The notes under the pieces: model-generated
Told to the model about the DNA's origin: nothing
Seen by the model: the letters and a program-made list of their open reading frames with translations, nothing else
Databases searched by the model: none
NCBI GenBank assembly: GCA_943736015.1
Contig: OX031070.1
Coordinates: forward strand, 25,565,673-25,629,672
Reading direction: 5' to 3'
DNA length: 64,000 bases
Origin: Tridacna crocea
Lineage: Eukaryota > Mollusca > Bivalvia > Cardiida > Cardiidae
Shown here: positions 15,701-62,408 of the stretch, in pieces
Layout of the letters: each line of letters begins with the position of its first letter
Position numbering within the stretch: the stretch's first letter is position 1
Translations under genes and position numbers: made by a program

Positions 15701-18700
15701 ACACACACTGTGCACACGACGTAAATGTATCGCCAAGTATCGATACAATGAGTTAGTATCGCGATATACTATCGCCAGCAAAAATATCACGATGCACCGA
15801 TGCATCGATGATATCGCCCCAGCTCTAATGACCTTCCTCCAACCCTAAAAACATACACTTCTCACAAGTAAATCTGTTTTATTATAGTATATCGTATCAT
15901 CACTAGTGATGATATAGTTTTAGAATGCTTGCCAAAACTACTTTTTCGGGGAGCAGTAGTCGCCGTGCTGTGTGTATGTCCGTTATCATGTGTCCTTCCC
16001 TCCGAAGCCATTTCTCCACAACCCCTGGACCAAATTTCATTAAACTTAATATCTGATCTCCTTGGAACAATGCGCAAATACCTCTTTCCCGGTTTCTCAA
16101 TTTTAGGCTGCATCATGGAAAAAGGGGGCCTCATGTAAAAAATTGTTTTTCACTGATATCTCCTACATTAGTGCTCAATAGTTCATGAAAATTCAAATTT
16201 GTAAAAAATCGTTTCATCATATCTCTTTCCCGGTTTCTCAATTACAGGCTGCGGCCCAGAAAAAAGAGGCTTCAAGTAAAAAATTGTTTTTCTCTAATAT
16301 CTCCTACATCAGTGCTCAAAAGTTCATGAAATTTCAAATCTGAACTCGTTGGAACATTACCCAGATACCTCTTCACCGGTTTCTCAATTTCAGTTTCATA
16401 CATTTTATGACAAGCACTTGTTTGGGGATCATAACCAGCTTCTTTTACCAGTGTTGTCTATATTATTCCAATACCAGATATGTTTTGTATGGTATTACAA
16501 TACCAGCTTCTTTTACCATAGTGTTATCTATATTATTACAATACCAGATACTACTAATTGTGCTACTGTATTATGCTGATTCTCCATTTTTTTTTTTCAT
16601 TTTTCTAAGTGAGGCTTTTGAGTCTTTCAATCAGATTTATGTTGCAGTAATTAGAACGCACTTCAATTGGTAAATCAATGAATGATAATGATAATTACTT
16701 TAAGATACAATTAATGTTAATCATCATTACTTACATAGATGGATATGTTCATAGCACCAGTATAGGGCATCATGCTTGAATATAATCCAAAAATACGATA
16801 TTTCACTGAAAAAAAAGGGACGAGTTAAATGAAGGAAGTCTTTCAAGGCTTACCATATCTAGAAAAGAACAGACAAAGTAAAACATGACCTTTTGCCACA
16901 CAATTCTGGGTTTTGACTATAACCATAAAAAAGAAGGCTTTTGAAAATATCATGGGTAAATATGGCAAATGTCTGTAAGATGCATTTTCTAAAGTTTTCA
17001 CAAGGTTTTTCGACCATTCCAAATACAGAAATCATATTTTGAGCAACATTTAATTTGTTGTCTGCAAATACATTCAATTTGGTTATAACTAAAGTTTTGT
17101 CCTTTGGGTTACCTACTCCGAGATCTCCAGAAATACTCAGAGATGCACTTTAGACTCACATTGCCTTTAACTCCATGCCAAATGACAAAAATGTAGACGT
17201 CCAAATAGTAAGTATTTGACGACAATTTAAATCTGGCTCAAATGATGCAATTGTTCTGGATAGGTTGGAAAACATTGTGGAAAAAGGAGAAAATGCTGGT
17301 AACCAGCATTTTCTCCTTTCTCCATAATGTTTTCAAAATACTTCTTTGTCAGGGTTGTAGCATATAATGAGATGAAACTGGGCATTAACATAAATTCTTC
17401 ATGTTTTCTAATTCTGAATTCTAAGTAGATAAATTCTCTACCTAATATTTAACTGTTTACCAAATGACAAAATTTCTCACTTATCCATGTTGTATGCATT
17501 TGCAAAGGACAAATCTATATTCAAATTATAGAATTTGTGAAACAGTAAAGGGTTAAGTAACTACAACAACATGCTCTAAAATGTTAATGTTCATGTACTG
17601 TATGACATTTCGGCATTTGCCTTCTTCAGGAGTACATGATAAAATAAATTGATATAAACAAACGTGATGTCATAAACGTTACATTACACAGAAAATTGCG
17701 GAAAAAAGGTGAAAATATGCATTAGAAAGTGTGCAATTTAGCGTAAATGAGTAAGACATATTATAAAGCATATCTCGAATTCACCGCAAAAACATCGCAA
17801 CTGCAGCCTGATTCAAGCTGTTGTTACGAGGTCTCTGCAGAAAACAATTGATATATACATATATTTTTTTCTGTGAAACAGTAGAAAACATTGTGGATGG
17901 AAAAGGTTAAAATATACTGGTTACCAGTCTTTTCTCCATTTCCTATTACTTTGATAAAAACCTTCACCATTGGTGAAGTTTTAAATAGGTAAATTCATGG
18001 CTGTCTGCAACATGTAATTCAAAGCAGACAACTCTAAAACTTACATTCGTCAAATACAAGTGAGAAGCAAGTAGCAAATAACAAGCACCTTTCTTATGAC
18101 TGGCTTTTACATTAGGTATTACCGAAACAAATTGACATGAAAATGACCTCTATGCAAAGCATAAATTACCAAAGAATATATAAAGTTTCGTAAGAAATCG
18201 GTCATTTACGAGTATCCTCGTTTGTATTCGGAGATTAGCCTAGGTATAAAATGTTTATCTACCCATCCTTCTACCGAATCAATATTCTGGACGATAGGAA
18301 AAGGCAGCAGACTGCAGATGAATACGGCATTGTTTCGAAACCGCACAGCAGGGTAATTTTTTTGTTGGCTTCTATCTTTTTTTTTAGTAATTATTTTAAG
18401 AAAAAGATGTAATAAATTTGGACACGCCCTACTCGTGCCTATACAATGTTTTCATTAGAAGTCCGAGTTTCATGTATTTGTCTTCTGTCATGTTCGCTAA
18501 AAGATGGCAGACAAAGGTCAGCAGCAAATGAATTCTAGGGCGAAGGAAATCGTTTACAATGTCTCGGAAAGATTTTTCAACAGCGAGGGATCATCAACGT
18601 ATCTCCAGTCAACAGCCGAGGCCACTGGAGTTAGCGCCAGTACAATATGGAGAATTAGAAAAGAAATGAAACAAACAGGAAAATTGCTTTCCCCACAGCG

Positions 18701-21700
18701 ACCACACCAGAGAGGGCCTTACAAGGCTATAGATGACTTTGACAAGTCCGTTATACGAAACAAGATCACGGAATTTTACACAGTGCAGAAACAGTTGCCC
18801 ACGTTGAAGATGCTGCAAACAACTTTGAAAAGGGACATTAACTTTACAGGAAGTGTATCCACACTAAGGAAATTAATACGGGAAATGGGATACAGGTGGA
18901 CAAAAACAAAAGACAATCGAAAAGTTTTAATCGAAAAACCGAACATAGTGAACAAAAGAATTACTTTTTATACAGAGAAAAATGAATTTGAAAAGAGAAA
19001 TCTTCAATTTGTTTATATAGATGAGACTTGGATCGACACAGCATACACGGTAAAGAAGTGCTGGCAAGGTCCCGATACAACTGGGATTATTTCACCCTGC
19101 AACCGTGGACAGCGTATCATTGTTGTAAATGCAGGAACCAAACATGGATTTGTCCCTGGAGCCAGCCTGGTTTACAAAGCTAAGAGTAAAACGGGCGACT
19201 ATCACAACGAAATGGATGGTGCCAACTTCACTAGATGGTTGGAAGAACGGCTGCTTCAGAGACTAGATGAGCCAAGTGTAATTGTGATGGACAATGCGTC
19301 ATATCATTCAATGAAAGTCGACAAATGTCCTACATCTAACAGCAAAAAAGCCGATCTACAGGTTAAAATGTGGTCCCCCATTTCGCGAAATTTCGTCCAA
19401 CAATATAAGCCGAATGCATGTGTTTGCAGTGTAATACTCACTGCTTGAAGATCAAACTAGGACGAAACGTTTGCCGTTTTGGAAGATTTTTATGACACTT
19501 AAAAGTCTATCTGCCTTAAGGGTTATTTATATAAGCGACCTGCACGAGTTTTTAACATTTATTTTGGTGTCGCTGATTTACAAAAAGGTCCATGTTGCAC
19601 TACAAATTATTATTATTATTATTATTATTTTTATTATAACAGTGATAGTATAGCCAGGATAGTAAAAAGGGGGGGGGGGGGGGGGAGGTGAAGACGATTA
19701 AGAAGAAGAAGAAGAAGAAGAAGAAGAACATTAATGATAAAATATACTTCAGTTTATCACAGGAATACTTTAGGTTGTAAAAGCAGAATTTTTATTCCCA
19801 GTTTTTTCTTATACTCATTTTTTATAAGCACAAATTCCTTCTCTATGCCAATTTTTATCTTTTCAATACAGGAATGGTTGAGGAAAGAAAACATTACTTT
19901 CGACATTACCATGTTGCGGCCCCAACTTCTCCAACTTGTACGAATGCACAAGAAAGCCCCAGAGTATGCTATTGACAACCTGATAAAATATTATGGACAT
20001 GAGGTTTTGAGACTTCCACCCTACCACCCAGATTTCAATCCAATTGAGCTTATCTGGAGCCAGTTAAAGTCAACTGTGCGCAGCAGAAATGTTACCTTTA
20101 AGTAAGTAAGAAAATTTATAACAGATGATCGTTCAGAATTTACCATCATAAATAGATATGAATGATTCTAAGCTCACACAAATTATCCTTCTATTTACAG
20201 ATATGATGATGTTCTCCATTTAACAGAGGAAGCCATGGATGAAATAAGACCAGAAAAGTGGAGATCCGCTTGTAATCATGTGGATATGCACATTCAGAAG
20301 TGCAGAGCGAATGATAATTACATAGATAAGCATATAGACTCCTTTTTGATAAATTTGAAGGATGACAGCCAGTCGGATGATGACAGTGCTTGAAACATAT
20401 ATCGATTGAAAATGAGTATTTACCAATGTAATTGTACACATATATTGTAAATAAATGGATGAAATAAATATATACATATGCTGTATATATGAGAGTTGGA
20501 AAAAAATGAATATTTTAGAATAAACAATGAAAAAATATATATATATAAATAAAAATAACATACAATAAATTTTTTTGAAAAATTAATAAATAAAATGAAT
20601 AATTGAAATAAATGAATAAATAAAAAATAATCACGCGTGAGAAAAAAAGAGAAATTCACTTACGGCTCGAACCCACGACCGAAGGAATAATTGAACTCGT
20701 CTGTAGTGTTCCACGCTATCATCTGATATTGTAATTCGTGTGATTTAAAAAAGATTTTATACCGTTTCTTGCTGTTTACGGGTGCTAACGATGAAAGCCG
20801 AAGGTATAAATAGACAATAATTCAAGCGTGTAATTATGGTAATAGAGGTCATTCATTTCATGTCAATTTGTTCTGGTAATACATTGTTTTCAAAAGAGGC
20901 AGCAAGAAGATAAAAGTCAAAATCATCTACAATTTGGTAATACATTGTTTGAAATAATTTTTTTGCTGGCTCTTCACAGATAAAGAAAATTTATCTGTAT
21001 CTTTATACAATGCATACCGTGGATCTTTATACAATTAATGCAGAAATTCCCCAGTTATGAGACAGTTTAAACAGTCCTTACATTCTAACCCAAACATGTA
21101 TGATGTAACCCTGTGTTTTAATGATCCTAAGGAAGTGGGTCTTTAAAAAAAAAACACTGTGGAAAAAGGAGTAAATAATGGTAATTTGCATTTTCTCCTT
21201 AATCTACCTAGTTTTTTATACTCACAAACTCACAAACACTAATTTCATACTTTATTTACTGGTACATTAATTTGTTGTCTGCATATGCCTTGCAAACAGA
21301 CTGGCCTAAATCAGTCATGTTTGACTATTCCTGATGATAAGTGTGTCTGACAAAATATACATTAAACACAGATAAAGACATTAAAGATTGCAGTACAACG
21401 AGTGGAGAAATATCATTGATTATTCTGTTCATTTTCTTTTTAATATTTTCAAACTTTTCTTCTGTGAAGAAATTCAAAAGCTGTCTGAAAGACAAAACGA
21501 CTAGGATTTATTTCTACAGGTCTGCATGATGAGAAATTGAGAATAGATTAGAATGGCCTAACTTCAACCAATCTATGTACATATATGGGAATGCTGTTAG
21601 GTCACAAAAAGAAAAGAAAATGTTATCAAATATAGCTCCTGTTTGGGTTGCTTACTAGGGCCATTTTTCATGTTCATAAAGTAGGTTGTTTCTTCCAATA

Positions 21701-28010: not shown

Positions 28011-38523
<10,513 letters not shown>

Positions 38524-45954: not shown

Positions 45955-46213
45955 TCAGTGACCAATAATCCCATTTCCATTTGTCTCTGGTGGTGAACTA
46001 TTCACGACTCCATTGGTATGCCCATTCGACTGAGTACCAACAACCTTGGTTGGACTACCAAGACTTTTGGATACTAGGTTATCTTTCCTTGACAAGTTGA
46101 ACATGGAATATTCTGGTTCATCGGTAACTTCTTTCTGAATGTCAAGAAAATCTGGTAATTCGAGATCCTCTGTTTTGGTGGTGTAAGTTTCTAGCAGTAC
46201 AAGCCCAGCACAT
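45955..46213 (-). CDS. TTD14-like terminal coding exon
   Basis: [20 protein letters not shown] then [20 protein letters not shown], followed by a ~45-residue low-complexity tail rich in Ser, Asn and Gly, ending at TGA 45955-45957. Acceptor CTTTCAG. Confidence 0.9.
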
Positions 46214-49200
46214 CTGAAAGTACACAACTTTTCCTTTGCCCACCATGTTTATGATATCTTTAACCCATTACCACACAATCCCTACTTTTGACACCCCTGA
46301 GAAAGAAACCTTTTGAAAACACTGTTGGAAAAGGAGAAAATGCTGGTAACCAGCATTTTCTCCTTTTCCAACAGTATTTTCTACCCTCCCCAAAACAAGT
46401 TTCAATTTTTCAGTCACATTTATTTTGTTGTCTGCAAATGCTTTCAATTTGGACCAGTCTAAAATTTACTTGTGTGGTAAAGAGTTAATTCCTTATCAAA
46501 CAACAAATAAAGAGTGGTTCATTTTGTACGCAGTTGCAGATGACATTACAAATGTGGCCGTATAGTGGAATTTGTCTTTGAAAGAGCAGAAAACATTGTG
46601 AGAAAAGGAGAAAATGTTGTTAACAAGCATTTTATCCTTTTCACTTAATGTTTTCAAAAAGCAGTTTTCTCAGGTTTATTAACCCTTTACCCCAAAAGGC
46701 ATTTCTATGGTATCTCTAATTGTCCCTTAATAACAGTAAGGATGAAACCGTTTCTTATGTGTATATGACACCTTTGATAGCATAGAAAACATTGTGACAA
46801 AAGGTGAAATTGCTCGTCAAGAGCAATTTCCCCTTTTGCCACAATGTTTTCCAAAGGCTTCTACAAGCAGTGGGTAGAAATGAGTATCTATGGAGTAAAG
46901 GGTGAAGACCTGAATTTGTGCAACACTGGGTAAAATTTTGGAAAAGGAAATGTTTCTACCAAATAGCTTTTTTTTCTTTCATGTGTTGTTCTTTGTAAGG
47001 TGCAAACATTATTTCAGTTATATCTCAGCATCTAGAGCACCTTTCCATGTGTTCCTAGTGCTTCTTGTCCAGTACTCAGTACAATAATCTTCTTAAAACA
47101 CTGGCTACTTTCCCACATAACCATAATTGAAACAACGATTGGCAGAGAGGGAGGAATGAATTCCATAACAGTGACTACTCAATCGTGTAGAATAACTCTT
47201 TACCTCACAATCCCCACTTTTATTGACCCTGTGAAAGAAGCCTTTAGAAAACAATGTGGGAAAAGGAGAAAATGCTGGTTACCAGCATTTTCTCCTTTCC
47301 CACAAAGTTTTTCTTCTCTTCCCAAAACAAATTTCAAATTTTCTGTTGCATTTATCTTGTTGCAAATGTGTTCAGTTTGAGCTAGTCTAAAACTGGTGAA
47401 GAGAATAAAGATTCAAACCATTTACTTCACAATTTTAAGCCCTGTACATCACAAACGGAGCCACTAGGCTATTGCTGAAACATTGAACTGTTTGGAAGAG
47501 GGTAAAAAAGAGTTTACATCCACATGTCTCATGTTTATCTATTTCTAAATAGGGCACCCTAGCATGGAATCCTGTTATATTGCTTTTATATTGCTTTTCA
47601 TCACCAAAAAATGTATGGATATTGAAGATGCAGCTATTCCATCATCAACTGGCCAATAGATACTGGTTCCCTGCATTTCCACCCAGGTCAGCTTGCACAG
47701 ATTATGGAGGCTGAATTGGGTCAAACAAGAGATGTTTGTAAAACATGTATGCCCCCCTAATGGCATCCAATGTGATCATAAACTCTTACAATCAAAGTGT
47801 AAAAAGGAACAAAGGGTAATTACTCAAAAATTATTAATGATAAATTAACAATTCTTGGGCACTGCACTTCCAATTTATGTGAACTATCAACTTTTAAAGT
47901 TTTATGATTTTACCTCACATACTTTTTGAGTTATGCTCTGGAAAAAAAATAAGTATAAAAATCAACAAAGGGCAGTAATTGCAAAAATATAATGGGCAGA
48001 GTTACGGTTCTTGTGCAGTGCACTTCTCCTGAATAAGATCTATCCACATATAAAGTTTCAAGATGATACCTGAAAAACCTTTTGAGTTATGCTCTGGAAA
48101 AAAATTAAGTATGAAAATCAGCAAAGGGCAATAACTCCAAAAATATAATGGGTAGAGTTATGGTTCTTGTGCACTGCACTTCTCCTTAATAAGATTAATC
48201 CACCTATGAGGTTTCAAGGTGATACCTGAAATACTTTTTGAGTTATGCTCCAGACAAAAATTAACTATGAAAATCAACAAAGGGCAATAACTCCAAAAAT
48301 ATGATGGGCAGAGTTATGGTTCTTGTGCACTGCACTTCTCCTTAATGAGATCTATCCACCTATGTAGTTTCAAGATGATCCGTGAAATAATTTTTGAGTT
48401 ATGCTCTGGACAAAAATTAAGTCTGAAAATCAACAAAGGGCAATAACTCCAAAAATATGATGGGCAGAGTTATGGTTCTTGTGCACTGCACTTCTCCATA
48501 ATAAGATCTATTCACATATGAGGTTTCAAGGTGATACCTAAAATACTTTTAGAGTTATGCTACAGACAAAAATTAAATATGAAAATCAACAAAGGGCAAT
48601 AACTCCAAAAATATGATTGGCAGAGTTATGGTGCTTGTGCACTGCACTTCTCCTTAATGACATCTATCTACCTATGAAGTTTCAAGGTGATACCTAAAAT
48701 ACTTCTTGAGTTATGCTCCAGACAAAAATTAAGTATTAAAATCAACAAAGGGCAATAACTCCAAAAATATGCTGGGCAGAAATATGGTCTTTGTACACCG
48801 CACTTCTCCTTAATGAGATCTATCCACCTATGTAGTTTCAAGATGATCCGTGAAATAGTTTTTGAGTTATGCTCCGGACAAAAATTAAGTCTGAAAATCA
48901 ACAAAGGGCAATAACTCCAAAAATATGATGGGCAGAGTTATGGTTCTTGTGCACTGCACTTCTCCTTAATGAGATCTATCCACCTATGAAGTTTCAAGAT
49001 GATACCTGAAATACTTTTTGAGTTATGCTCCGGACAAACGTGGTCTACGGACCGACGGACCAACCGACCGACAAGTGTAAAGCAATATACCCCCATTTCT
49101 TCGAAAGGGGGGCATAAATATTTTGTAGATGCATTAAGCACCACCTTTTTCAGAAGGTATGCCTCAAGCATAATTACTGTGAATATTCAAAGGGTTAACC

Positions 49201-52200
49201 AAAAACACTTATTTACAAGGAACTTAAATCCTAGACTGAATTCCTTGAACTACTTACTTCTTTGGGCACTCGTTTGTGTAAATGTCCATCTGAAAGTATT
49301 GATCTTTCCACAGGAAACATCTTCTCTGTTTGAATATTGTTGCATTGTTGTCGTCCTTTTGCATCAGTAATATCTTTCAGAGAGAAAAGTTTTCACATTT
49401 TAAACCTATACTATTCAATCCCAAGTTTTAATAACCCTGTTGGAAAAGGCTCATGAATACATAGTGGGACAAGCAAAGATTATTGGCGACCTACATTTTA
49501 CCATTTCCAACAATGATTTCTGCTTTACCTAAAATAAGCCCTGTTCTCTGAGTCACCTGCAATTTAACCCTTTACCGCACAATGATGACTTTTAGCACCA
49601 CTGAGGAAGAAGCCTTTCAAAAACATTGTGGGAACAGGAGAAAATGCTGGTAACCAGCATTTTCTCCTTTTCCCACAAAGTTTTCTGCCCTATCAAAGCA
49701 AAATTTGAGCCACTTTAAAACTGCCGTTTGCAAATGCTTTCAATTGGGATAGGTCTAAAATTTTGCTGTGTAGTAACGGGTTAATGTCTGCAAATGCTAT
49801 CTATCTGGAGGAGTCTAAAATTCTGTCATTTGGTAAAGAGGTAATCCCAAAAATCTCAAAACTGGGGCATAATAAAAATCAGCATTTTCTCTTTTACCCA
49901 TGGCTTTTTCTACCCATTCAAAGATCAACTCCGTCATTTGAGCAAAATTTGATTTGTTGATACTAGCTAAAAAAAATGTTAACAGCCTCGCACATTGTAG
50001 GCATCTGTAAATGAGAAATCAAACATGGCTTGATAGATTGTCAATGAAAGGGCAGAAGATACTGTGGGAAAAGAAGAACAAGAGCTTTCCATATACGCCC
50101 AAAAGGGCTTGTCAATGAAATCAATTAAAATCGAGAACACCTCAAGAGATCCAAAAATGAAGAGCCACACGAGATATATTGTGATAAGTTTGAACTTATT
50201 CTGATGGAAACTGTTGCAAAGATGGACGGATGGTCAGACAGACAGACTGAACATTCTCTCCATCTTGCAGGAGACCAATACTTGCGTAAGCAGTAAAGGT
50301 TTATTCATATACTAGTATAAGAGTTCACTCTTTACAAAATAACACTTTTGGACTGGAACAAATTCAAAGCATCTACAGACAACAAATTAAATTTTTCTAA
50401 TATGGTGATTTTTGACTTAGAGAGGGTAGAAAATATTGTGGGAAAAGGAGCAAATGCCGGCTTCTTTCTCAGAGATGTTAAAAGTCCAGACTGTGTGTTA
50501 AAGAATTAATGCAATACAGTGTCATTTACTACTGCTTCAGAGAGATCAACTCTGCTCTGTGAAAAGCTGGTTTAATGCTTCTGTTAAAGGTATCAACCAA
50601 GACATGGGTCCAGACTTTTTGCTAGAGGTAAACTTTCTGCATGTCAGAGGACCATTCTGCATCATGACTCAGCTTGTATTCAAACAGAAATGATCCATAT
50701 TATACATTGGCTTGGTATCAAGCATCAGGAAGATGCATTAACTCATTACCAAACGACAATCATCATAAGACTTGTTCAAATTGAAAGCATTTGCAGACGA
50801 CAAAATAAAAGTGACTGAACATTTGAAATTCGTTTTGTGAAGGGTGGAAAACATTGTGGGAAAAGGAGAAAATGCTGGTTACCAGCATTTTCTCTTTTTC
50901 CCACGATGTTTTCTAAAGGCTTCTTTCTTAGGAGCGTCAAAAGTAGGGATTGTGTGGTAATGGGTTAAACTACCTTTTCCTAGACCACTGCTTATGAATC
51001 TTCTCAGGACAGAAAAAATACTTCATGTATCATTACAAAGAGCTCCAGATAAGAGGGAGTGATGGTATTCTAAATCCATTCTATTTCTTTGAAACCCTAT
51101 GTTGTAGGTGCTCATTCAAATCCTCTCGCAATGATTCTAATGAGTACCCATAACATAGGGTTTAGTGGAGAATGATTAATATTCTCAATTTTGACATCAA
51201 AATCACTCTCTGTCTGGATCTCTGTTACTCATACCTCAACTTACATTATAATCTTTGATGTTAATGGGCATTTTAACCTCAACACTTTGATTATTAATCT
51301 CAGGCCTTCTTATAGTGTGTGTGTATGTCCAAACACCTAACAATATAATACAAAACAACATGTCAAACATAAAAAACAACAGTAACTCAAAGATATAAAA
51401 TTCAACTGCAATACAACAGTATCATTATGATGTATACAACTGTTTGTCGAACAACACCATGTGTAAACTCTTTACCACATAAACTACAGTTTTAATCCTT
51501 TACCATGCAATCCCGACTTCTAACGACCCTGACAAAGAAGCCATTTAGAAAACATTGTACCCAGCATTTTCTCCTTTTCCCACTAGGTTTTCTACCCTTT
51601 CAACAACAAATCTCAATTTTGAAATGCATTTATTTTGTCATCTGCAAATGCTTTCATTTTAGACTGAAGAAAATGCTGGTAAAAACCATTCTCTCCTTTT
51701 CTCAGAGTGTTTTCTATCATTTCCAAGACAATAATCATCTGAGCTACTTTATTTTGTCTGCAAATACTTCTGAATTGGTATTTTTGAAAATTTTAAAGTT
51801 TGGTAAAGAGTTGACCAACATAAAACATGAACAAGTCTTGAATTGTAAAACATGGACAAAATCTTAAATGTGCAAAGGCAACCTTGAAAAAGGAAAGAAA
51901 TCAGTGCCTTCCTGTCTCAACACTGCAATAAAAACTGCAAAAAAAAAAACAACACAACAAACAAGACAAAAAAGACCCATAAAACACTGCTCTTTTATAC
52001 TTTAAAGTTAATGACAATCTACTGTAACTGAGACTTTTCTCACTGATATGCAATGAAGTTGTCAGTACATGTTAATAGATTTATTTACAGATTATTTTAA
52101 TAGAAAACTATCAGAATATTTGCTTCATAATTATGTCTTTCAAACTTGCTATGGGTCATAAAATGAAAGAAACGCAAAGGCTATCAATGATGTGAATTCC

Positions 52201-55200
52201 TTGAATGTGTATTTGTCACAGCAGAAGTAGCTGTTAAGAGTAGGGTGTTCTCTCTCCACAAAATTTACAATTCAACTCTACAAATTTTGATAAAGAATAA
52301 CATTCAATTGGCCATAACAGTGAGCAATATTGTTAACCTTAGTATGCTCACAATATGTGCTTTTCCTCCTCATAGGGAAGCTTCCAACTAAGTTTAACCC
52401 ATTACCACACAATCCCTAACTTTTGACGCCCTGAGAAAGAAGCCTTTAAAAACATTGTGGGAAAAGGAGAAAATGCTGGTAACCAGCATTTTCTCCTTTT
52501 TCCAAAATGTTTTCTTTTCGTCACAATACAAATTTCAAATTTTCAGTCACTTTTATTTTGTTGTCTGCAAATGCTTTTGTTTTGGACAAGCCAAGAGTTA
52601 ACAGAGTTCAATCTCATAGTTGCTGAAAAACAGAGGGGAACCCAAATTCGGTTGGTAAATTTCAAACTGCTATAACTCTGGCAAAAATTATCTAACCAGA
52701 ATATGCTTTCAATGAGTGCACATGCACCTTACAGCAAAGCTTTCAATATAGTTTCATTGAGTTCCATTAAGCAGCTGCCAAGAAATAATGGAAAGAAATT
52801 TTGCTTTGCAGGTTTCATATGGGTCTAAAATTGTGCTCATGTATACTTACATTGTAGTCTTTGACATTTATTTGCATTCTTAATTCAACACTTTGTTTAT
52901 TAATTTCTGGTCGTCTTATTGTATGAGTGTACGTCCAAATCTCTGAAGCATAATTATATTTTTTCCTCAGTAATTACATTTTCCAAATGCTTGTGCTACC
53001 ACTGAGTCAGGGGGTCTGCCAATCAAAGTACCTGGACATATTACTCAGACACTAGAGATAAGTTAGGAAACATGTGCAAGTAACCGGACTATGATTTAAT
53101 CATGAAATAATTATTCTAGATAAAATAAGCATGGGAATATTTTGGGAAAAGGCAGTTACGCTTTTTGGACTTAGGTTTTTCAAATTTATAAAGGTGAAAA
53201 GTGAAATACAGGCTTTTCATTTTGAAGTCCGTTGACTTACACCTCTTACACCACTTCCATGTGCTAATGTTACACATGTACATTTAACTCTTTACCAAAC
53301 AACACATTCTTGACTGGACCAAATTCAAGGCATCCACAGACAACAAATTAAATCTTGAGAATATGATATTAGACTTTCATAGGGTAGAAAATATTGTATG
53401 AAAAGGAGAAAATGATGGTTAGCAGAATTTTCTCCTTTTCCAACAATGTTTTCTATGGGTTTTTCTCAGGCTTTTAAAGGTCAGGATTGTGTGGTAAAGA
53501 GTTAATTCATACTCTAAACACTTTTTATCTTTTTATATCTATACAATTTATCTTTTACCATGATGAAAAATAACCTTTTTTCAAAGTTAGAACTCCAGGA
53601 GTTATTGAGTATTAAAGAGGCCATAATACTCATTTTAAGCGAGTTTTAACTCATTTTGTTTTTATTTTATCAAAATATGATCATTCTTATATATCTATGC
53701 AAAATATTGCGCCTGACGGTTGCATGGTTGCTTAGATTACACCTGATAGAAAATGCATTTCGCAGACTTGCGGCCTTCAATGTAAACAGATTGTTTGTTG
53801 CCAGATTTTGAATCGAAGATTTTCGATATCCGTTATACACCCGAGTAGTTTCGTATGATGATCATGCATTCTGTAACGTGACTATATTTGACCTTGGCCT
53901 TGATGCGGTGAATAAAGGAAAATGGTTGCTTCTCTGTTGCAGCCTCTATTTTAAGACGGAGATTGATGCTTATATGTAAGTTAGCCTACACCGTATCCGA
54001 CTCTATGCGGAAACCAACGATAAATTTCCATGAGTCACCGCCATTGTTTACAGCTTCGATCGTCAACCAGTTTTCTTCTGACCAATTTTAGGTTTTTCAC
54101 ACAAACCCCCATGTTTCTTTTTTCATTTACACGATATATGTCAGTAATTTATCCTTGTGTACACAAAGGACAGATTTCTGTACCATTCTATTTTTTCTTT
54201 TTTAAATTTAACAGCGTTTCTGCTCACCGGCTGCAGACAGGCATCTTTAAAACAATTTACACACAGGAGAAAGAAAAAAAATCCTACCATTTTGACCCCT
54301 CCTTCTTAATCTTGCCTGCATTTTCCTACTTGGAGTGACTAAGTAATCATGTACCACAGTGAAGTCTTGATGTTGTGGAAACTTCTGCAAATAAAGACAA
54401 AAAAAACCCTGCCATAATAGTTTCTGAAAAAGTCTATGGTAATACTGAGAAAACTGACCTATCTGATTGACTTATTACCTTACGACAAAATTTTACCTTT
54501 CTCCAAATCGAAAGCATTTGCAGACGACTAAACAAAAGTGACTCAAAATTTGAAATTTGTTTTGTGAAGGGTAGAAAACATTGTGGGAAAAGGAGAAAAT
54601 GCTGGTTACCAGCATTTTCTCCTTTTCCCTCAATGTTTTCAAAAGGCTTCTTTCTCAGGGTCGTCAAAAGTAAGGATTGTGTGGTAATAGGTAAAACTAC
54701 TGCTACACTCTTTCCAAATGATAAGCTTGATGACAACCCTTTTAATTGGAAAAAAAAAAAGCCTGGATGAGTCAGTCAATCAGAAAAGGTGTCCCAAAAG
54801 TCACATGGTTGATGCTTTGAAATAAGGTAATATTAACCAAACTTATCTCTGATAAAAGCACATTATGTGTAAACTCTTGATAACTTGATAACAAAGTTAT
54901 TGCAGGATGAAACAAGAGCGGCAAATTGTCGCAAGATACGCCCGTCTTACCCCAAATTGTAAAGCTGGGGCATGCACCGGACAAAATTCAAGTATGAAAA
55001 AACAACAAAAGGCAATAACACAAAAATTAAGCGAGCAAGAGTTATGATTCCTGTGCACTGCGCTCCCCCTTGATGAGATCTATCCACCCATGAAATTTCA
55101 TAACCCTAGCTAGTATAGTTTTGGAGATATCCTCCGGACAAAATTCAAGTATGAAAAACGACAAAGGGCAATAACTCAAATATTAAGCAAGCTAGAGTTA

Positions 55201-58200
55201 TGATTCCTACGCACTGCACTCCCCCTTGATGAGATCTATCCACCCATGAAATTTCATAACCCTAGCTAGTATAGTTTTGGAGATATGCTCCGGACAAAAT
55301 TCAAGTACGAAAAACAACAAAGGGCAATAACTCAAAAATTAAGCGAGCAAGAGTTATGGTTCCTGCGCACTGCACTCCCCCTCGATGAGATATATCCACC
55401 CATGAAATTTCATAACCCTAGGTAGAATAGTTTTGGAGATATGCTCCGGACAAAGAACTGGACGCCGCCCGCCGACCCGCCCGCCACAGGTGATCCCATA
55501 ATACGTCCCGTCTTCGACGGGCGTATAAAAATATCAACTTGTGAAAAAATATTTTTGTGAGTATACTTTCTGGTTCAATATCTGACAACAGAATTTTCAG
55601 TGGCTGACAGAATTACTTACTTTAAATGACCCTTGGTATGCTGTCCTCACTTCCATACACAAAAGGGGCAACATTTTTGCCCAATCAATCAGAAATGATC
55701 ATATTAACAAGATTTAATATGTTGTCTGAAGGTGCTTTGAATTTGGTCCAGTCCAAAGAATTTGTTGCTTGATAAAGAGTTAAGATAATTAAAACTTAAC
55801 ATTGTGTGGTAAAGGGTTCACAAAGCAAACTAATTCCATTTAACTCATTACCACACAATCCCTACTTTTGACGACCCTCAGAAAGCAGCCTTTAGAAAAC
55901 ACTGTGGGAATAGGAGAAAATGCTGGTAACCAGCATTTTCTCCTTTTCCCACAATGTTTTTTACTCTTCACAAAACACATTTCAAATTTTCAGTCACTTT
56001 CATTTTGTTGTCTGCAAATGCTTTCGATTTGGACAAGCCTAAAATATTGTCATTTGGAAATGAGTTAATGATATAATTATGAACACTGCTGGTATGTTTA
56101 ACCCTTTACTCCATAGATACTCATTTCTACGCATTGCTTGTAGGAGCGTTTGGAAAACATTGTGGCAAAAGGTGAAATTGCTCGTGACGAGCAATTTCAC
56201 CTTTTGCCACCATGTTTTCTATGCTATCAAAAGGTGTTATATACACATAAGAAACATCTTCATCCTTGCTTTTTTTTAGGGTCAATTAGAGATACCATAG
56301 AAATGCCTTATGGGGTAAAGGTTTAATAATATCCATCTCAAAATTTCATACAGCAGTTAGACTTAGTTCTTGTTCCTAATCCACACTAGTAAGAAATTAC
56401 AGTTCTGGTTGGTTGTATTGGTTGTTAGGGTTTAATGCCACTTTAACAGCTAATGTCATATCATGGCGGTCGGTGACACACATGTGTCTCCTGGCTTTCT
56501 CACACCAGTATTAACACAACTTTCTTTCCAAAGTCACTGACTACTTTTCTCAGATCCTTCATCAGAGGTGAGAGGCTACAGTTCTAGACAAAATTTACGA
56601 TCTTTAAATACATCTTTGTATAAAGGAAAAACAATCTAACCACAAATCAGAATTTACGGGTGTTTTACCTCAATTGCTGGCACAACCGATACCAAGAACT
56701 TCCTCTTTTTACTAGCTGAGTGCAACCGGTCTCCTGCATCTATTCCTAATCTATGACACACGGACTGGAATTGAAAAACCAAAAATACTGACACATCAGG
56801 AATGGATATTTTTTCATGAATATGATACATTTGTAATATAGATAGCAACATGGGATACTTTCATTTAGAGTAAAAATAAGATTATACCTGACAAAAGACG
56901 CATTCCTAGTTTGTATTCACGAGAGATCCAAACATTCTTCCAAGTCCGAGTTCCAACACTAAGCATCTAACTTTTCACCAAACAACAAAATTTTAGACTG
57001 GTCCAAATTGAAAGAATTTACAGACGACAAAATAAATGTGAATGAAAAATTTGAATTTGATTTGGAAAGGAGAGAAAACATCGTGGGAAAAGGAGAAAAT
57101 GCTGGTTAACAGCATTTTCTCCTTTTCCCACGATGTTTTCAACAGGCTTCTGTCTAAAGGTCGTCAAAAGTCGGGATTGAGTGGTGAAGGGTTAAATGAG
57201 TGAGAATTGCCACCCATTAGATACTTACAATGAAATTCAAAATTAAAATCAAATTTAGAATGTTTGGTAATTAGAATCTTCCATTTCAATTCTATATTGA
57301 GAAACATGTTAACTCTTCACTAGTCATCCACACTCAGACTTGCCAACATTGTTAGGGATATGAAAAGAACAATTTTGACACCTCACAGACAATTTCTCTT
57401 TGATAATGCACAAAACATTGCTGAAAAGAAGACAAAGCTGGTTCCAGTGTTTACTCCTTTTCCCACACTGTATTCAAAACCATTTTTACCAAAGGGAAGT
57501 AAAAGATGTATAATCAATCAGCAAGAGTTTGTACATACATTTATCATTCTCATTATCTTGTCCTCAAAATCTGAGCTGTTATCAACAACATCAAAATAGG
57601 GATGTCCCACCCAAGCCTGAAATACAAAACAAAAGTAAACATAAAATATTCAAAGTCTTTCCTTTGTTAAAATAATTACTTTGAGTGAATAAGAAATAAT
57701 GATAGGACAATTTATCATTAGTGAAAGCAGAGTTTAGTGTCCCAGTCTGTAGCATACAAGATGAGCAATCTAGGTACATGCACTGACAGATCAATTTGGA
57801 AAAAAGAAGAAAATGTAGTTAAAAATAATTTTCTCATTTTCCCACAATGTTTACTTTCCTTTTAAAGACAAATTCAATTATTTAGTCATTTAACTTTGCC
57901 TTCTAAAAATATTTTCAAACTAGAAAAGTCTAAAAGTTTGTCACATAGTAAAAAGTTACTGAAAGAATCTTTTTTTTTAACTTGTTTTTAACTTAGATTT
58001 AATTTTGTAAAAAAAAACAAGACAAAATTGGACACAATGATCTGCCATGCTCTACCACGGGTGGCAGTCGGGTAACTCTTTCCCATACAATGCCAAATGT
58101 TTTTCCCGCAGGAAAACAAACACAATTCTGAAAACATTGGGAAACAAGAGTTATGCAAAGTAGCACATATATGCTCAAAAGGGCTTGTCAGACAAATGGG

Positions 58201-61200
58201 TTAAAATCTATAAGGCCTGTAGATTTCCAAATTCTCAAGTCAGATCCACAACTATCATCATAGAGATTCACTGTGGTAAGTCTGAACCTATTCCAAAGAA
58301 GGAGTTGAGCCCACAAGAAAATGCCAATGGACGGATGGACAGACGGACAAACAGACAGACAGATGACTGGGGCCATAACATTATACTACCCCTTAGGTGT
58401 ATAAAAAGAAACAAAATGCTGGTCACTAGCATCTTTCACATTTCCCACAATTCTTGTACCATTTTACATACAAATCATGAATTGCTTTAATTTTCGTTCT
58501 AAAATTTTGTCGCCTGTAAGAGGATTTATGATTTGCTTACCTGAGCTGTTATTTTATCCAACGCTACTGCCTCTTCAATGCCCTCATACCTTGTTTTATG
58601 CCCTGCGCAAGTGTAGAAAGCTTCAGCACCATTAGCGGCAGTCACCATGTGGATGATCTGGTTGTACCGATTATCTCGTAAATCCACCTCACTCCAATCA
58701 TTGTCTCTCTTCATTCTTTCCCAGTCTTCTGGTGCCAAATCTAATTATGACAATTATGTCTTTTTCACTTGGAAAAATAAAGTCATTTACATTATAATTC
58801 TTCACCCTTTTCTACACAATCCTGAGTTTAAATGAACCCCAAGGAAAGGACTTTTAGAACATTAACCCTTTACCCCATGAAGTATTTCTATGGTATCTCT
58901 AATTGACCCTAAATAACAGCAAGGATGAAGCCGTTTCTTATGTGTATGTGACACCTTTGGATAGTATAGAAAACACTGTGGCAAAAGGTAAAATTGCTCG
59001 TCACGAGCAATTTCACCTTTTGCCACAATGTTTTCCAAAGGCTCCTACAAGCAATGCGTAGAAATGAGTATTTGTGGAGTAAAGGGTTAAGAGCTCTGTT
59101 TATTTAGTATTTTTTAATGTCCCTTTCAATGTCCATTATTTCAGTAATATCTTGGCAGCAGTTCTCCTACCTAGTTAATTGCAAGACGTCCTTTCAAAGC
59201 AACTGCCTGCTTTCCAAGATAAAGATCAATGACATAATCATAAATGTTTAGCAGGGAGACAGGAAAGGTTCTTGTTGGTTGGCTGATTGTATTAGGGTTG
59301 AACGCCACTTTAACAGCTAAGGTCATATCATGGCGGTCAATGACGCACATGTGTTTCCTGGCTTTCTCACACCAGTACTAACACAACTTTCTTCCATATG
59401 CCACCAACTACTGAGGTAAGAGGCGAAAATACGCCGGAGAGAAATTTTGCCTCAACCGTGTATCGAACTCACAACCACCAGGTCACACGCAACACGCTCA
59501 CCACAGAGCCAAAGGGCAGGCGAAAGATTCTTGTAGCCATAACTATCATTAAACTGAGGAAAGAAAATGGCCATGTTGTGAATTGAAACTGCTATCCCCT
59601 TCAACAGCAGTTTTTACCAACTGACTGTTTAACTCTATACCTAGGTTGGCTTTACCGATCGCCAAAATCGCCATTGGCGATTAAATCTTATTGCTGGCGA
59701 CTAAAAACAAGGAAAGTGCCGATATTGGCGATTGTAAAAAATGTGATCAGAGAAAATGGCCGACTGTCAAATTGTTATCAGGTTTGTATATTGAACACTT
59801 TCCAAACTGTGAAATCGGCCTACGCCAACTTGATTATCATATATACCGGCTATCCTAAGCTCTTAAACCCTTGTATCTCCCTTAACTATCCGATAGACCA
59901 AGACCGGATAAAAGTTGCGCTCTGCCAGTTACCGAGTGCGCTTGTTCTATAAATAGAATACATTCATGTACAATCGCAATTTTTTGGACAGTGTGGTGCT
60001 GAATGAATTATGTACATGAAAGTGAAGTTTTACTTTCGTTTATCGAGTAAATTTGACAGCATCAATGGCGATTTTTCTCAAATACTAAACCTTTTAAGGT
60101 TTGTGTGGCCTTATAAGATTCTTTTCTAATGAAGTCCCTTTTGTAATAATGAATGCTGGGTCTATATTTCGCCAAATGAGTTATAGATGTAACCTGTTAT
60201 CTGATAATTTTCGGAGATCGGCATCTTCGAGAAAGGCAAAGTGTGAAAGGGTATTTCTTAGATCATTTGCAAGACAAAACAGATATTTCGCATTGCATTT
60301 AATCAAAATCATAAATAAATCATAAGTATAAATATCTCTAGCAATGCATGAATTAATGACTGGTATGCAGAAATTGAAAGAGCTGTTGAACTGCCTTTTC
60401 AAAGGTAGAAAACATTGTTGGAAAAAAAAAATGCTGGTTTCCACCTTTTTCCTAGAATTAATAATAGCCTTCTTCCTCAGGATTGTTCAAACTGAGGATA
60501 TGCGATTCCTGGTGTGGTGAAAGGTTAAGCCTGATTAAAATATGCATTTTATTTTCTTTTATGGAACTTTTTGATCATTCACCAGCCTATAAGCACAGGA
60601 ATTTGTAGCTGACTTTCAATACTTGGCTCTCTCATGTATGTAATGAGACCATCAAAAATATCTTAAAAGAACAACGACTTAAATATTATATCAGTGATGC
60701 AAAGCTGTAGATCTAGATTTATATTTACCATACAGGACTCATAGCCATGAAATACTCAGAAATTGACACTAAGTAAAACTTTAAAAGTGATAAGGCTCGG
60801 AGACTGATCCCGGGTTTTGATGGACAAAACTTTTGGCTACTAAAAATTTTTGGCTGGCGCCAACCTAGTATACCCTTGGAAAACATAGTAGGAAAAGGAG
60901 AAAATGCTGGTAAACACTTTTACAGTTAAGTTTCAATTTTTGAGTCATGGTTTTTTTTTTTTCCTATCGTCTGCTAATGCTTCCAATTTGGAACAGTCTG
61001 AAATTTTGTTGTTTGGTAAAGAGTTAACTCATTACCAAACAACAATATTTTAAACTGGTCCAAAGTGAAAGCATTTGCAGACGACAAAATAAAAGTGACT
61101 GAATAATTGAAATTTGTTCTGGGAAGGGTAGAAAACACTGTGGGAAAAGGAGAAAATGCTGGTTACCAGCATTTTCTCCTTTTCCTACAGTGTTTTCAAA

Positions 61201-62408
61201 AGTCTTCTTTTTCAGGGCCGTCTAAAGTAGGGATTGTGTGGTAATGGGTTAAGCCATCATGATAATTTCAGCCGTACTCTAGTACAAGTGACTTAAACCC
61301 TTTCCCAAATAATCCCTGGTTGTTACATCCCTGAGAAAGAAACCTCTTGAAAACATTGTAGGAAAGGGAGAAAATGCTAGTAACCAGCATGTTCTCCTTT
61401 TCCCATAATGCTTTCAACTCTTCCAAGTCGTCAAAATTCAATTTTTGATTCACATTTGTCATCTGCAAATGGTTTCAATTTGGACTAGTCCAAATTCTGT
61501 CGCTTGGGTAAAGGGTTAACTCTTTACCACACAAGAAAATTTTAGACTGGTCCAAATTCAGAGAACTTGCAGACAACAAAATAAAGGTCACTAAAAAATA
61601 GAATTTTGTTCTGGGAAGGACAGAAAACTCTGTGGGAAAAGGAGAAAATGCTGGTTACCAGCATTTTCTCCTTTTCCCATAGTGTTTTCAAAAGGCTTCT
61701 TTCTCAGGGGCGTCAAAAGTAGGGATTGTGTGGTAAAGGGTTAATACATCTCCATGATGCGCTGTATTAACCAAGTCACCACACAATCATGGATCTGTCA
61801 AGTCCATTTTGTCAATCAACTAAATCCTGAGATAGAATGGTGCTTGGGCATGCAGAAAATATACAAATAGCAAGAAATTCTGACCCAGGTAAGCCTGTAT
61901 GATCTGCTCAAGCTGACATGGGTCGATCCTCTTTGCAGATGCATTAACTCTTTACCACTCAAGAATATTTTAGACTGGTCCAAATTGTAAGCATTTGCAG
62001 ACTATAAAATAAAGGTGACTCAAAAATTGAAATTTGGTTGGGGAAGGGTAGAAAACTGGTTACCAGCATTTTCTCCTTTTCCCACAGCGTTTTCAAAAGG
62101 CTTCTTTTTCAGGATCCAAAACATGACATGACTCATTCGTATTTTCCAAGACATTGTCTGTGGCAATCTGCAACAAACAGTACTCCTTGGTGAAGCAGTA
62201 AAGAACATATAACAACTTATGCAATGAATATTAACCCCTTTAAATACATGTTTAAATTTTTTTTCTCATTCATACTTACAAGCTGACCCATCCATTATCC
62301 CACGATCACAGATGATGAGACAGTTTTTCTTGCATGTAGAAGCCAGATCCATGTAGGTGTTTTCTATCTGCATCATGGTTTTAATGAGGTTCTCTTGAAA
62401 CTTGTATG
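45955..62408 (-). CDS. TTD14-like P-loop/CYTH-domain protein, 3' part (start off the right edge)
   Basis: Homologue of Drosophila TRPL translocation defect protein 14, a GTP- and phosphoinositide-binding protein used in membrane trafficking of a TRP channel (family knowledge). Minus-strand exons: 62280-62408, 58541-58740, 57539-57616, 56669-56764, 54288-54384, then either 52851-52942 or 51245-51336, then 49258-49373 and 45955-46213 (stop TGA). All GT-AG, and phases agree throughout. Motifs in order: [14 protein letters not shown] (second half of the nucleotide-binding domain), [40 protein letters not shown], then the CYTH-like region with [56 protein letters not shown] and [20 protein letters not shown]. 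The C-terminal tail is Ser/Asn/Gly-rich. The P-loop exon is not in the window. The alternative exon pair is the notable feature. Confidence 0.88.
46260..46488 (+). repeat. THP-A copy with compensated arm change
   Basis: CTGTTGGAAAAGG at left and CCTTTTCCAACAG at right: the usual G-C step is replaced by T-A on both arms. First of three abutting copies. Confidence 0.86.
46485..46682 (-). repeat. THP copy, middle of a triple
   Basis: Shares TTAA with both neighbours. Centre AATGTTGTTAACAAGCATT. Confidence 0.65.
46679..46903 (-). repeat. THP-B copy, third of the triple
   Basis: TTAACCCTTTACCCCAAAAG; centre GCTCGTCAAGAGC. Confidence 0.78.
47191..47408 (+). repeat. THP-A copy, right end shortened
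   Basis: TAACTCTTTACCTCACAATC; the right half lacks ~12 bp at GTTGCAAATG. Confidence 0.7.
47724..49117 (+). repeat. AACAAGAG element family B, about 8 array units
   Basis: 5' AACAAGAGATGTTTGTAAAA, a palindrome (ATGTTTGTAAAACAT), then TATGCCCCCC. Array units of ~156 bp are related to family A (GGGCAATAACTCCAAAAATA, TGTGCACTGCACTTC). The 3' end reads ATTT-CTTCG-AAAGGGGGGCATAA; GGGGGGCATA is the inverse of the 5' TATGCCCCCC. Confidence 0.78.
49258..49373 (-). CDS. TTD14-like exon
   Basis: [20 protein letters not shown] then [19 protein letters not shown]. Acceptor TCTGAAAG, donor GTAAGT splitting a lysine codon. The aromatic/charged FxMDIY block is a CYTH-like strand pair of the family. Confidence 0.9.
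49405..49843 (+). repeat. THP-A copy split by a younger THP copy
   Basis: Left part to TGCAATTTAA (49567); right part from TTAATGTCTGCAAATGC (49781). Removing the insert and one TTAA restores a normal right half. Confidence 0.75.
49564..49784 (+). repeat. THP-A copy, nested, with proven TTAA duplication
   Basis: Bounded by TTAA 49564-49567 and 49781-49784, both matching the single TTAA expected in the host copy. Confidence 0.85.
50077..50260 (+). repeat. AACAAGAG element family D, 3' end eroded
   Basis: AACAAGAGCTTTCCATATAC then GGGCTTGTCAATGAAAT, matching the other D copies. Its left flank is the left half of a minus-strand THP copy cut inside the palindrome arm (GTGGGAAAAGAAG). Confidence 0.6.
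50326..50509 (-). repeat. THP-D copy with right arm deleted
   Basis: GGAGCAAATGCCGG runs into CTTCTTTCTCAG. Confidence 0.65.
50738..50968 (-). repeat. THP-A copy, full length
   Basis: TTAACTCATTACCAAACGAC to GTAATGGGTTAA. Confidence 0.84.
51092..51163. repeat. Intronic hairpin next to the TTD14-like alternative exon b
   Basis: AAACCCTATGTTGTAGG... pairs with ...ACATAGGGTTT over 25 bp, 22 matching, with a ~23-bp loop. It lies 80 bp downstream of exon b in gene orientation. Confidence 0.6.
51245..51336 (-). CDS. TTD14-like alternative exon b (mutually exclusive candidate)
   Basis: 92 bp, [20 protein letters not shown] then [11 protein letters not shown]. Acceptor TTGTTAG, donor GTAAGT. The frame is intact and changes are mostly synonymous or conservative, which argues against a decaying duplicate. 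Splicing a to b directly would shift frame and stop after eight codons. Confidence 0.83.
51464..51813 (+). repeat. Two nested THP-A copies
   Basis: Outer copy starts GTAAACTCTTTACCACATAA. An inner copy starts 51493 (TTAATCCTTTACCATGCAAT) and ends near AGACTGA, after which the outer AGAAAATGCTGG resumes. The inner copy has lost one arm. Confidence 0.6.
52394..52601 (+). repeat. THP-A copy, short right end
   Basis: TTAACCCATTACCACACAAT to GCCAAGAGTTAA; ~20 bp missing before the right terminus. Confidence 0.78.
52851..52942 (-). CDS. TTD14-like alternative exon a (mutually exclusive candidate)
   Basis: 92 bp, [20 protein letters not shown] then [11 protein letters not shown]. Acceptor TGCTTCAG, donor GTAAGT. 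Same length and phases as exon b 1.5 kb downstream in the gene; 24 of 31 residues are identical. Confidence 0.85.
53284..53505 (-). repeat. THP-D copy, full length
   Basis: TTAACTCTTTACCAAACAAC to GGTAAAGAGTTAA; centre AATGATGGTTAGCAGAATT. Confidence 0.75.
53506..54287. other. TTD14-like intron stretch, nothing recognised
   Basis: No THP copy. A 102-codon open frame at 54030-54338 overlaps a real exon on the other strand and has no motif. Confidence 0.5.
54288..54384 (-). CDS. TTD14-like exon
   Basis: [20 protein letters not shown] then [12 protein letters not shown] plus one base G. Acceptor TTTGCAG, donor GTAGGA. It ends with one leftover base and so fits either of the two alternative exons that follow. 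Confidence 0.88.
54470..54696 (-). repeat. THP-A copy, termini mutated
   Basis: CTTATTACCTTACGACAAAA; palindrome perfect. Lies ~90 bp upstream of the TTD14-like exon at 54288 in gene orientation. Confidence 0.75.
54911..55528 (+). repeat. AACAAGAG element family A, about 3 array units
   Basis: Shortest family-A copy. The 3' part carries GCCGCCCGCC and the intact CCCGT-CTTCG-ACGGG hairpin, then GCGTATAA. Lies in the TTD14-like intron upstream of exon 54288-54384. Confidence 0.8.
55840..56068 (+). repeat. THP-A copy, full length
   Basis: TTAACTCATTACCACACAAT to AAATGAGTTAA. Confidence 0.84.
56098..56326 (+). repeat. THP-B copy, full length
   Basis: TTAACCCTTTACTCCATAGA to GTAAAGGTTTAA. Palindrome GGCAAAAGGTGAAATTGCTC-GTGAC-GAGCAATTTC. 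Best complete B copy. Confidence 0.85.
56405..56580 (-). repeat. SINE fragment without tRNA head
   Basis: Matches the 59270 copy over CACTTTAACAGCTAA, GTCATATCATGGCGGTC, CATGTGTCTCCTGGCTTTCT. The tRNA-like part is missing. Confidence 0.6.
56669..56764 (-). CDS. TTD14-like exon
   Basis: 32 complete codons, [20 protein letters not shown] then [19 protein letters not shown]-type strands begin the CYTH-like domain. Acceptor ATTCCAG, donor GTAAAA. Confidence 0.88.
56967..57195 (-). repeat. THP-A copy with compensated arm change
   Basis: AACATCGTGGG at left and CCCACGATGTT at right replace the usual ATTGTGGG / CCCACAAT pair. Confidence 0.85.
57309..57505 (+). repeat. THP copy, strongly diverged
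   Basis: TTAACTCTTCACTAGTCATC; only a hint of the palindrome. Ends 34 bp from the TTD14-like exon at 57539. Confidence 0.45.
57539..57616 (-). CDS. TTD14-like exon
   Basis: 26 complete codons, [20 protein letters not shown] then IMRMIN. Acceptor ATTTCAG, donor GTATGT. Confidence 0.88.
57797..57957 (+). repeat. THP copy, left end missing
   Basis: AAATGTAGTTAAAAATAATTTTC centre to GTAAAAAGTTA. Confidence 0.5.
58073..58520 (+). repeat. THP-A copy split by an AACAAGAG family-D element
   Basis: Left part ends GAAAACATTGGGAA; right part resumes AAATGCTGGTCACTAGCA at ~58410. Confidence 0.65.
58143..58404 (+). repeat. AACAAGAG element family D, inside a THP copy
   Basis: AACAAGAGTTATGCAAAGTA to CCCCTTAGGTGTATAA. 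About 260 bp; it splits the THP copy 58073-58520 within its palindrome arm. Confidence 0.65.
58541..58740 (-). CDS. TTD14-like exon
   Basis: Completes the tyrosine codon, then [60 protein letters not shown] and DKITAQ. Acceptor AATTAG, donor GTAAGC. One of the most conserved exons of the family. Confidence 0.92.
58800..58865 (+). repeat. THP-A left fragment
   Basis: TCACCCTTTTCTACACAATC to TTAGAACATTAA, cut where the B copy starts. Confidence 0.5.
58862..59090 (-). repeat. THP-B copy, full length
   Basis: TTAACCCTTTACCCCATGAA to GTAAAGGGTTAA. Centre GCTCGTCACGAGC. Confidence 0.84.
59270..59530 (-). repeat. tRNA-derived SINE
   Basis: On the minus strand: GGCTCTGTGGTGAGCG (A-box region), GAGTTCGATAC (B box), a body with CGCCATGATATGACC, and a tail of CAATCAGCCAACCAAC. 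It lies in a TTD14-like intron and shares its body with 56405-56580. Confidence 0.65.
59641..60868. mobile_element. 1.2-kb TIR element with TSD TATAC, inserted in a THP copy
   Basis: Ends CTAGGTTGGC...GCCAACCTAG, flanked by TATAC (59636-59640 and 60869-60873). Subterminal GGCGATT / GGCGACT repeats at the left end. No transposase recognised; the 92-codon open frame at 59674-59952 has no recognisable motif. It interrupts a plus-strand THP copy and itself contains a degenerate THP copy (60372-60529). Confidence 0.75.
60372..60529 (-). repeat. THP copy inside the TATAC-flanked element
   Basis: GTAGAAAACATTGTTGGAAA; right arm decayed; right end GTGAAAGGTTAA. Confidence 0.55.
60869..61027 (+). repeat. 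THP-A copy, right part (left part at 59629-59640)
   Basis: Resumes after the TATAC-flanked element. The right palindrome arm is missing and a T run replaces part of the right half. Confidence 0.6.
61024..61252 (-). repeat. THP-A copy, full length, sharing TTAA with the previous copy
   Basis: TTAACTCATTACCAAACAAC to GTAATGGGTTAA. Confidence 0.84.
61293..61519 (+). repeat. THP-A copy
   Basis: TTAAACCCTTTCCCAAATAA to TAAAGGGTTAA. One arm carries CATGTTCTCC. Confidence 0.8.
61516..61744 (-). repeat. THP-A copy abutting the previous one
   Basis: TTAACTCTTTACCACACAAG to GTAAAGGGTTAA. A tail-to-tail pair with one shared TTAA. Confidence 0.84.
61944..62116 (-). repeat. THP-A copy with left arm deleted, right end cut
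   Basis: GGGTAGAAAA runs into CTGGTTACCAGC. Confidence 0.65.
62280..62408 (-). CDS. TTD14-like exon (nucleotide-binding domain)
   Basis: [20 protein letters not shown] then [22 protein letters not shown]-x-MD is the family's conserved motif. Acceptor ATTACAG, donor GTAAGT after a split tyrosine codon. First TTD14 exon visible in the window. Confidence 0.88.

Follow-up and report, generated by a model that had tools for sequence, protein, structure and literature searches.

A TTD14-like gene on the minus strand

The stretch of DNA analyzed here, hereafter the window, comprises 64,000 nucleotides (nt) of the bivalve Tridacna crocea (assembly GCA_943736015.1, contig OX031070.1, positions 25,565,673 to 25,629,672 of the forward strand). 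Its minus strand carries a TTD14-like gene in which two homologous exons, fA and fB, lie one behind the other and are predicted to be mutually exclusive. In window coordinates, the first exon found, exon a (62280..62408), opens the match to the Pfam family AAA_28 and encodes the Walker-B-like motif LIICDRG. Exon b (58541..58740) contributes a further part of this match and is followed by exons c (57539..57616) and d (56693..56764); all four have an open frame and AG/GT splice sites. Exon e (54288..54384) is the upstream neighbor of the alternative pair, formed by fA (52851..52942) and fB (51245..51336), and exon g (49258..49373) is its downstream neighbor. Exon h (45955..46213), whose frame is open behind either member of the pair, includes a TGA stop and is taken as the last exon. 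The gene model has AG at 9/9 acceptors and GT at 8/8 donors, and with fA or with fB alike a single open frame runs from exon a to the TGA in exon h. Two Walker-A-like patterns, sought in all three reading frames of the minus strand, found no match in the window, a search that a motif split by an intron would escape. The 5′ part of the gene therefore probably lies beyond the window.

The predicted protein matches AAA_28 with an E value of 3.6e-9 (37.5 bits) for isoform A and 4.1e-9 (37.3 bits) for isoform B, at a cut-off of 27. The match spans profile positions 58–163 of 164 only. No CYTH family was among the matches listed in any of four Pfam queries covering both isoforms (E up to 10, with most matches above 0.1 dropped). 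Relatives were sought with a 306-residue isoform B query from which the C-terminal tail was omitted. For isoform B only, searches of the PDB and NCBIfam returned no matches, and PHROGs returned one phage head family (E 0.031), which we take as chance. In viral_contigs, isoform B gave no pattern match and the two-exon alignment 48; in genome_contigs, the same queries gave 25 and 17. Neither collection yielded a relative, and the two, which hold viruses, bacteria, and archaea, have little bearing on animals. We take the protein to resemble insect or nematode TTD14, and the name TTD14 fits its predicted features. The earlier note on this DNA had called the gene TTD14-like; the AAA_28 match and the Walker B form of LIICDRG bear out that name in part, whereas the CYTH side of the claim found no Pfam match and the window yielded no P-loop motif.

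In Drosophila TTD14, the likely fly relative and a protein of membrane traffic, a P-loop domain occupies residues 65–167, with a Walker B motif of the form hhhhDxG at 152–158, and a CYTH domain occupies residues 279–437, while residues 254–320 show a weak likeness to PX (PMC4624897). The protein is reported to bind guanosine triphosphate (GTP) and phosphatidylinositol 3-phosphate (PtdIns(3)P) (PMC4624897). The T. crocea protein resembles it in the predicted combination of a P-loop nucleoside triphosphatase with a CYTH-like part, and LIICDRG of exon a matches the hhhhDxG form described there (PMC4624897). The alternative segment corresponds to residues 192–222 of the protein fragment, as worked out by hand. 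With LIICDRG set on residues 152–158 and no gaps assumed, it falls near Drosophila residues 314–344, an estimate made without an alignment. By this estimate, the segment would lie within the CYTH range and overlap the end of the PX-like stretch. An effect of the seven residue differences on GTP or PtdIns(3)P binding is conjecture, as is the tuning of lipid or nucleotide binding that the earlier note had suggested.

Two homologous exons in tandem

Exons fA and fB share their length (92 nt), entry phase (1), exit phase (0), and AG/GT splice sites. Their acceptors read ...cttcag and ...tgttag, and their donors gtaagtata and gtaagttga, respectively. They are identical at 69 of 92 nt and encode segments identical at 24 of 31 residues, counting the split junction codon, which encodes E when fA is used and G when fB is. 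The seven residue differences are E/G, I/V, K/N, L/V, R/K, Q/P, and V/I; four of them (I/V, L/V, V/I, and R/K) are mild, and E/G, K/N, and Q/P are larger. When the two exon peptides are compared by tblastn, they match at an E value of 1e-15, with the next-best place in the window at 0.09 for fB and 0.18 for fA. The similarity is far beyond chance. None of the seven remaining exons has a second copy in the window below E 0.3 when its peptide is searched by tblastn. The coordinates that the earlier note had assigned to fA, fB, e, and g proved exact, and its description of the pair (same length, same phases, proper AG/GT sites, and 24 of 31 residues identical) agrees with ours once the split codon is counted. 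To this picture we add that skipping both exons breaks the frame, that synonymous change is saturated, and that the similarity stops at the splice signals.

The differences between fA and fB are concentrated at silent positions. The exons differ in 18 of their 30 whole codons, in 12 of which the change is silent, and the differences at codon positions 1, 2, and 3 number 4, 2, and 15. By the Nei-Gojobori method, synonymous differences amount to 14 of 16.7 sites and nonsynonymous differences to 7 of 73.3, a synonymous excess with a binomial P of 1.7e-6 if rates were equal. We also simulated neutral drift in 5000 copies of each source exon, scoring a copy as passing when it kept at least 24 of 30 residues and acquired no stop. 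With 0.3 changes per site, the passing fraction was 0.04% for one source exon and 0.12% for the other; with 0.6, no copy passed among 5000 per exon.

The exon match ends six bases into the donors. The adjoining 50 bases of intron are identical at 15/50 positions upstream and 17/50 downstream, splice signals counted. Farther out, the intron flanks of fA and fB share copies of a dispersed repeat (blastn). In this wider comparison, the stretches overlapped by construction, hence a 100% match, and we read the other matches as dispersed repeat copies. The saturated synonymous sites, the few nonsynonymous changes, and the dissimilar adjoining introns together indicate that the exons were duplicated long ago and that protein-level selection has maintained both of them. 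A recent tandem duplication or an assembly artifact is ruled out by the synonymous saturation and the low identity of the flanks.

Consequences of exon choice for the reading frame

Either fA alone or fB alone joins exon e to exon g in frame. When both are included, a TAA beginning at base 25 of fB ends the frame after eight fB codons, 181 nt before the g/h junction. A stop so far before a downstream junction marks a message for nonsense-mediated decay under the usual rule, so messages with both exons are predicted decay targets and should be cleared. When both are skipped, the frame shifts and is closed within exon h by a TGA at base 70 (position 46144). The frame is thus predicted to penalize both errors, joint inclusion being the only one penalized at the message level, and exactly one exon per mature message is what the frame arithmetic predicts. 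The earlier note had proposed that the exons exclude each other by phase, that either fits between e and g, and that both together bring a stop after eight codons. The last two statements are confirmed by the frame, and the frame arithmetic, together with the selection apparent on both copies, lends strong support to the first.

The fA donor contains a second GT four bases in (52847–52850), and its use would make fA, lengthened by four bases, and fB readable together in frame. This second GT is probably meaningless, as it is present in every GTAAGT donor.

Splice signals and motifs around the pair

Two causes of exon exclusion can be set aside. The intron between fA and fB measures 1514 nt, which rules out crowding by a too-short intron, and both donors are GTAAGT, of U2 type when judged against the U12 consensus, which rules out U2/U12 incompatibility. 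The two 3′ splice sites differ in strength: pyrimidines make up 8/22 positions before fA and 14/22 before fB, where the tract is U-rich.

The densest UGUUGU cluster of the window lies in a stretch immediately upstream of fB on the minus strand (51337..51636), a putative CELF-type binding region. The 300 nt before fB contain five TGTTGT and 12 TGTT, against none and one before fA, and no flank of the other seven exons has more than one TGTTGT. When 300-nt segments were taken in 25-nt steps, a count of five TGTTGT was reached in 2/2548 on the minus strand and 0/2548 on the plus strand, and both of those found overlap 51337–51636. The fA–fB intron also contains two minus-strand TGCATG motifs, putative RBFOX sites, at 52721..52726 (~125 nt downstream of fA) and at 51504..51509 (173 nt upstream of fB). 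With 24 TGCATG on the window's minus strand, the chance of finding one in both chosen flanks at that density is ~0.011. The motif screen relied on 500 single-base shuffles, and motifs were reported only at a shuffle P < 0.1. It also returned TCTT/CTCT/TTCT downstream of fA (9 versus 4.49 expected, P 0.048) and YCAY downstream of fB (9 versus 3.79 expected, P 0.004), neither of which we use in the argument.

These signals suggest how the choice could be made. With its U-rich 3′ splice site, fB would be the default exon, and fA would be weak and under regulation. Repression of fB would come from a CELF-type protein bound to the UGUUGU cluster, and RBFOX acting through the UGCAUG motifs of the fA–fB intron would favor fA, which would then be the nerve-biased form.

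Other features of the window

A palindromic repeat of ~200–230 nt, resembling a miniature inverted-repeat transposable element (MITE), is spread throughout the window, for example at 50771–50971, 52391–52596, and 49563–49698. The 64 kilobases (kb) contain 30 matches to the 14-base core of this repeat, GAGAAAATGCTGGT, on one strand and 29 on the other, and two copies form near-perfect hairpins of 32–33 nt. Repeats of ~150 bases built around 'TTTTGTCCGGAGCATA', read by eye, stand in tandem at 47900–49100 and recur at 55000–55520, with related peptides near 36 kb (35993–36520).

On the plus strand, two separate open stretches (18501–19445 and 19692–20102) match the DDE_3 transposase family, the second opening with a low-complexity run; the pair looks like an interrupted transposon copy. 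A long open frame at 30778–31650, also on the plus strand, has strong leucine-rich repeat matches. Together with 38203–38520, for which we found no Pfam match, it may represent an LRRC47-like gene. On the minus strand, 2762–3034 matches the Alpha-2-macroglobulin bait region (E 6e-6). The minus-strand stretches 6871–7137, 7285–7650, and 23329–23547 gave no Pfam match but look like members of the same thioester-protein family.

Discussion

We consider it very likely that fA and fB arose by an old tandem exon duplication in a TTD14-like gene and have been retained as mutually exclusive exons. Splicing would join e–fA–g or e–fB–g, the two resulting proteins would differ in seven residues, all within one 31-residue segment, and the gene very probably makes these two slightly different protein forms. 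The arrangement is of a familiar kind, in a gene for which we found no report of it in the accessible literature.

In the available part of the literature, the closest functional parallel is the pair of exons Ab and 3 of vertebrate U2AF1, which are tandem-duplicated and change seven residues (PMC5224494). Messages with both or neither of these exons carry stops and are reduced by decay (PMC5224494). The resemblance to fA and fB thus extends to tandem duplication, the number of residue changes, unequal splice signals, and stops in both wrong products. The genes are unrelated, however, and fA and fB are known from genomic sequence alone. Double skipping also sets the two apart, being a decay target in U2AF1, whereas in the TTD14-like gene the stop lies in the last exon found and decay is not expected.

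The proposed regulation recalls unc-32 of Caenorhabditis elegans, where exon 7a has weak splice sites and exon 7b is used outside neurons (PMC3585155). There, UNC-75, a CELF protein, represses 7b by binding UUGUUGUGUUGU in intron 7a, an intron that its name places between exons 7a and 7b; RBFOX proteins, acting via UGCAUG in intron 7b, and UNC-75 help 7a (PMC3585155). A weak first exon, a default second exon, an element between the two exons such as UUGUUGUGUUGU in intron 7a, and the involvement of UGCAUG are features that the pair would share with unc-32. The UGCAUG motif follows the second exon in unc-32, whereas two lie between fA and fB, and protein binding has been demonstrated in unc-32 but is only inferred for the motifs around fA and fB. 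We regard a switch with fB as default and a regulated, nerve-biased fA under CELF/RBFOX control as a tentative lead from the motifs, possible but far from established.

Earlier descriptions offer little precedent within the gene family. The available text on Drosophila TTD14 describes isoforms A and B, which differ at the 3′ end, and isoform C, which has one more exon; it names no alternative internal exon pair (PMC4624897). In the Manila clam, mutually exclusive exons are among the least represented splicing events (PMC9803972). A search for mutually exclusive exons in molluscs listed no match with the TTD14 gene in its title or the start of its abstract. The full name 'TRPL translocation defect' was found in PMC4624897 and PMC8396179 only, in the text available from these sources, and a further paper on transcripts of Drosophila (PMC10627254) may mention the gene. 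The earlier note knew of no report of such a pair for TTD14, and our literature search, with most subscription papers outside its reach, agrees.

Three other explanations of the pair deserve consideration. One of the exons might be a copy that is dead or almost so and seldom enters a message. The pyrimidine-poor 3′ splice site of fA would suit such a copy, the evidence for both exons is genomic, and at 0.2 changes per site ~2.5% of neutral copies look equally good. A dead copy is nevertheless unlikely to keep 24 of 31 residues with its synonymous sites saturated, the saturation itself argues against a distance as small as 0.2, hardly any simulated copies pass at 0.3 and none at 0.6, and similarly poor tracts precede exons a, b, and h. 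We give this explanation very little credence. It is likewise very unlikely, in our judgment, that the pair serves mainly as an on/off control, in which joint use would lower the protein level through a decay-targeted message and the protein difference would matter little. The early stop brought by joint inclusion, 181 nt ahead of the g/h junction, and the mildness of four of the seven differences are compatible with it, but a decay exon needs no conservation of its protein, and both fA and fB are constrained.

The third explanation invokes competing RNA stems of the docking/selector type, in which a repeat in the fA–fB intron would pair either upstream, looping out fA, or downstream, looping out fB. 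Positions 52391–52590 are pairable with 50771–50971 around fB (202 nt, 90%), and 52394–52596 with 53308–53505 around fA (203 nt, 74%), so that the middle arm is common to both stems. Docking/selector exon clusters such as Dscam exon 6 (PMC6071210) resemble the pair in their duplicated exons of like length and in possible competing stems; the stems around fA and fB come from a common repeat. Inverted repeat pairs flank 7/7 internal exons tested (5/5 besides the pair), with scores for g and d near that of fB, and it is on this ground that we rank the docking/selector explanation low. Many of the matches to the repeat core represent both arms of a single copy, and at least two copies fold back on their own sequence, with stems of 32–33 nt and 1 nt between the arms (among 25 of 48 inverted pairs listed). 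We treat the stems around fA and fB as unspecific and hold it highly improbable that they direct the choice.

Several points weigh against an old, mutually exclusive pair and, above all, against the switch proposed for it. The exon pair comes here from one species, and the neutral copies that pass at 0.2 changes per site have already been mentioned. Double-skipped messages probably escape decay because their stop lies in the apparently last exon, leaving double skipping unsilenced by the frame at the message level. As for the choice itself, a poor pyrimidine tract is not peculiar to fA: exons a (10/22), b (8/22), and h (9/22) have about as few pyrimidines. Exon use in U2AF1 does not follow simply from splice-signal strength (PMC5224494), which urges caution in naming fB the default from its tract. 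The UGUU richness may merely be the pyrimidine tract of fB. The TGCATG on the fB side sits in a diverged repeat copy, a third TGCATG lies at 53868 in the e–fA intron, and another occurs upstream of exon c (1/14 flanks of the other seven exons). The motif evidence as a whole comes from one sequence and was chosen from nine motif patterns in four flanks.

Taken further, the pair could reflect an old, lineage-wide CELF/RBFOX switch in a phosphoinositide- and GTP-binding trafficking protein, with a nerve or photoreceptor form and a general form that differ in membrane-lipid preference or partners; we think this unlikely. If the two exons are used, there would be two tuned forms of a little-studied trafficking protein, and the positions at which they differ, seven in all, would mark a functionally important part of its C-terminal domain. 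Because the synonymous change is saturated, the duplication should be old, and the pair would be expected across a wide group of animals. The motif layout would also allow an exon switch of the CELF/RBFOX kind, known from a nematode, to be examined in another phylum.

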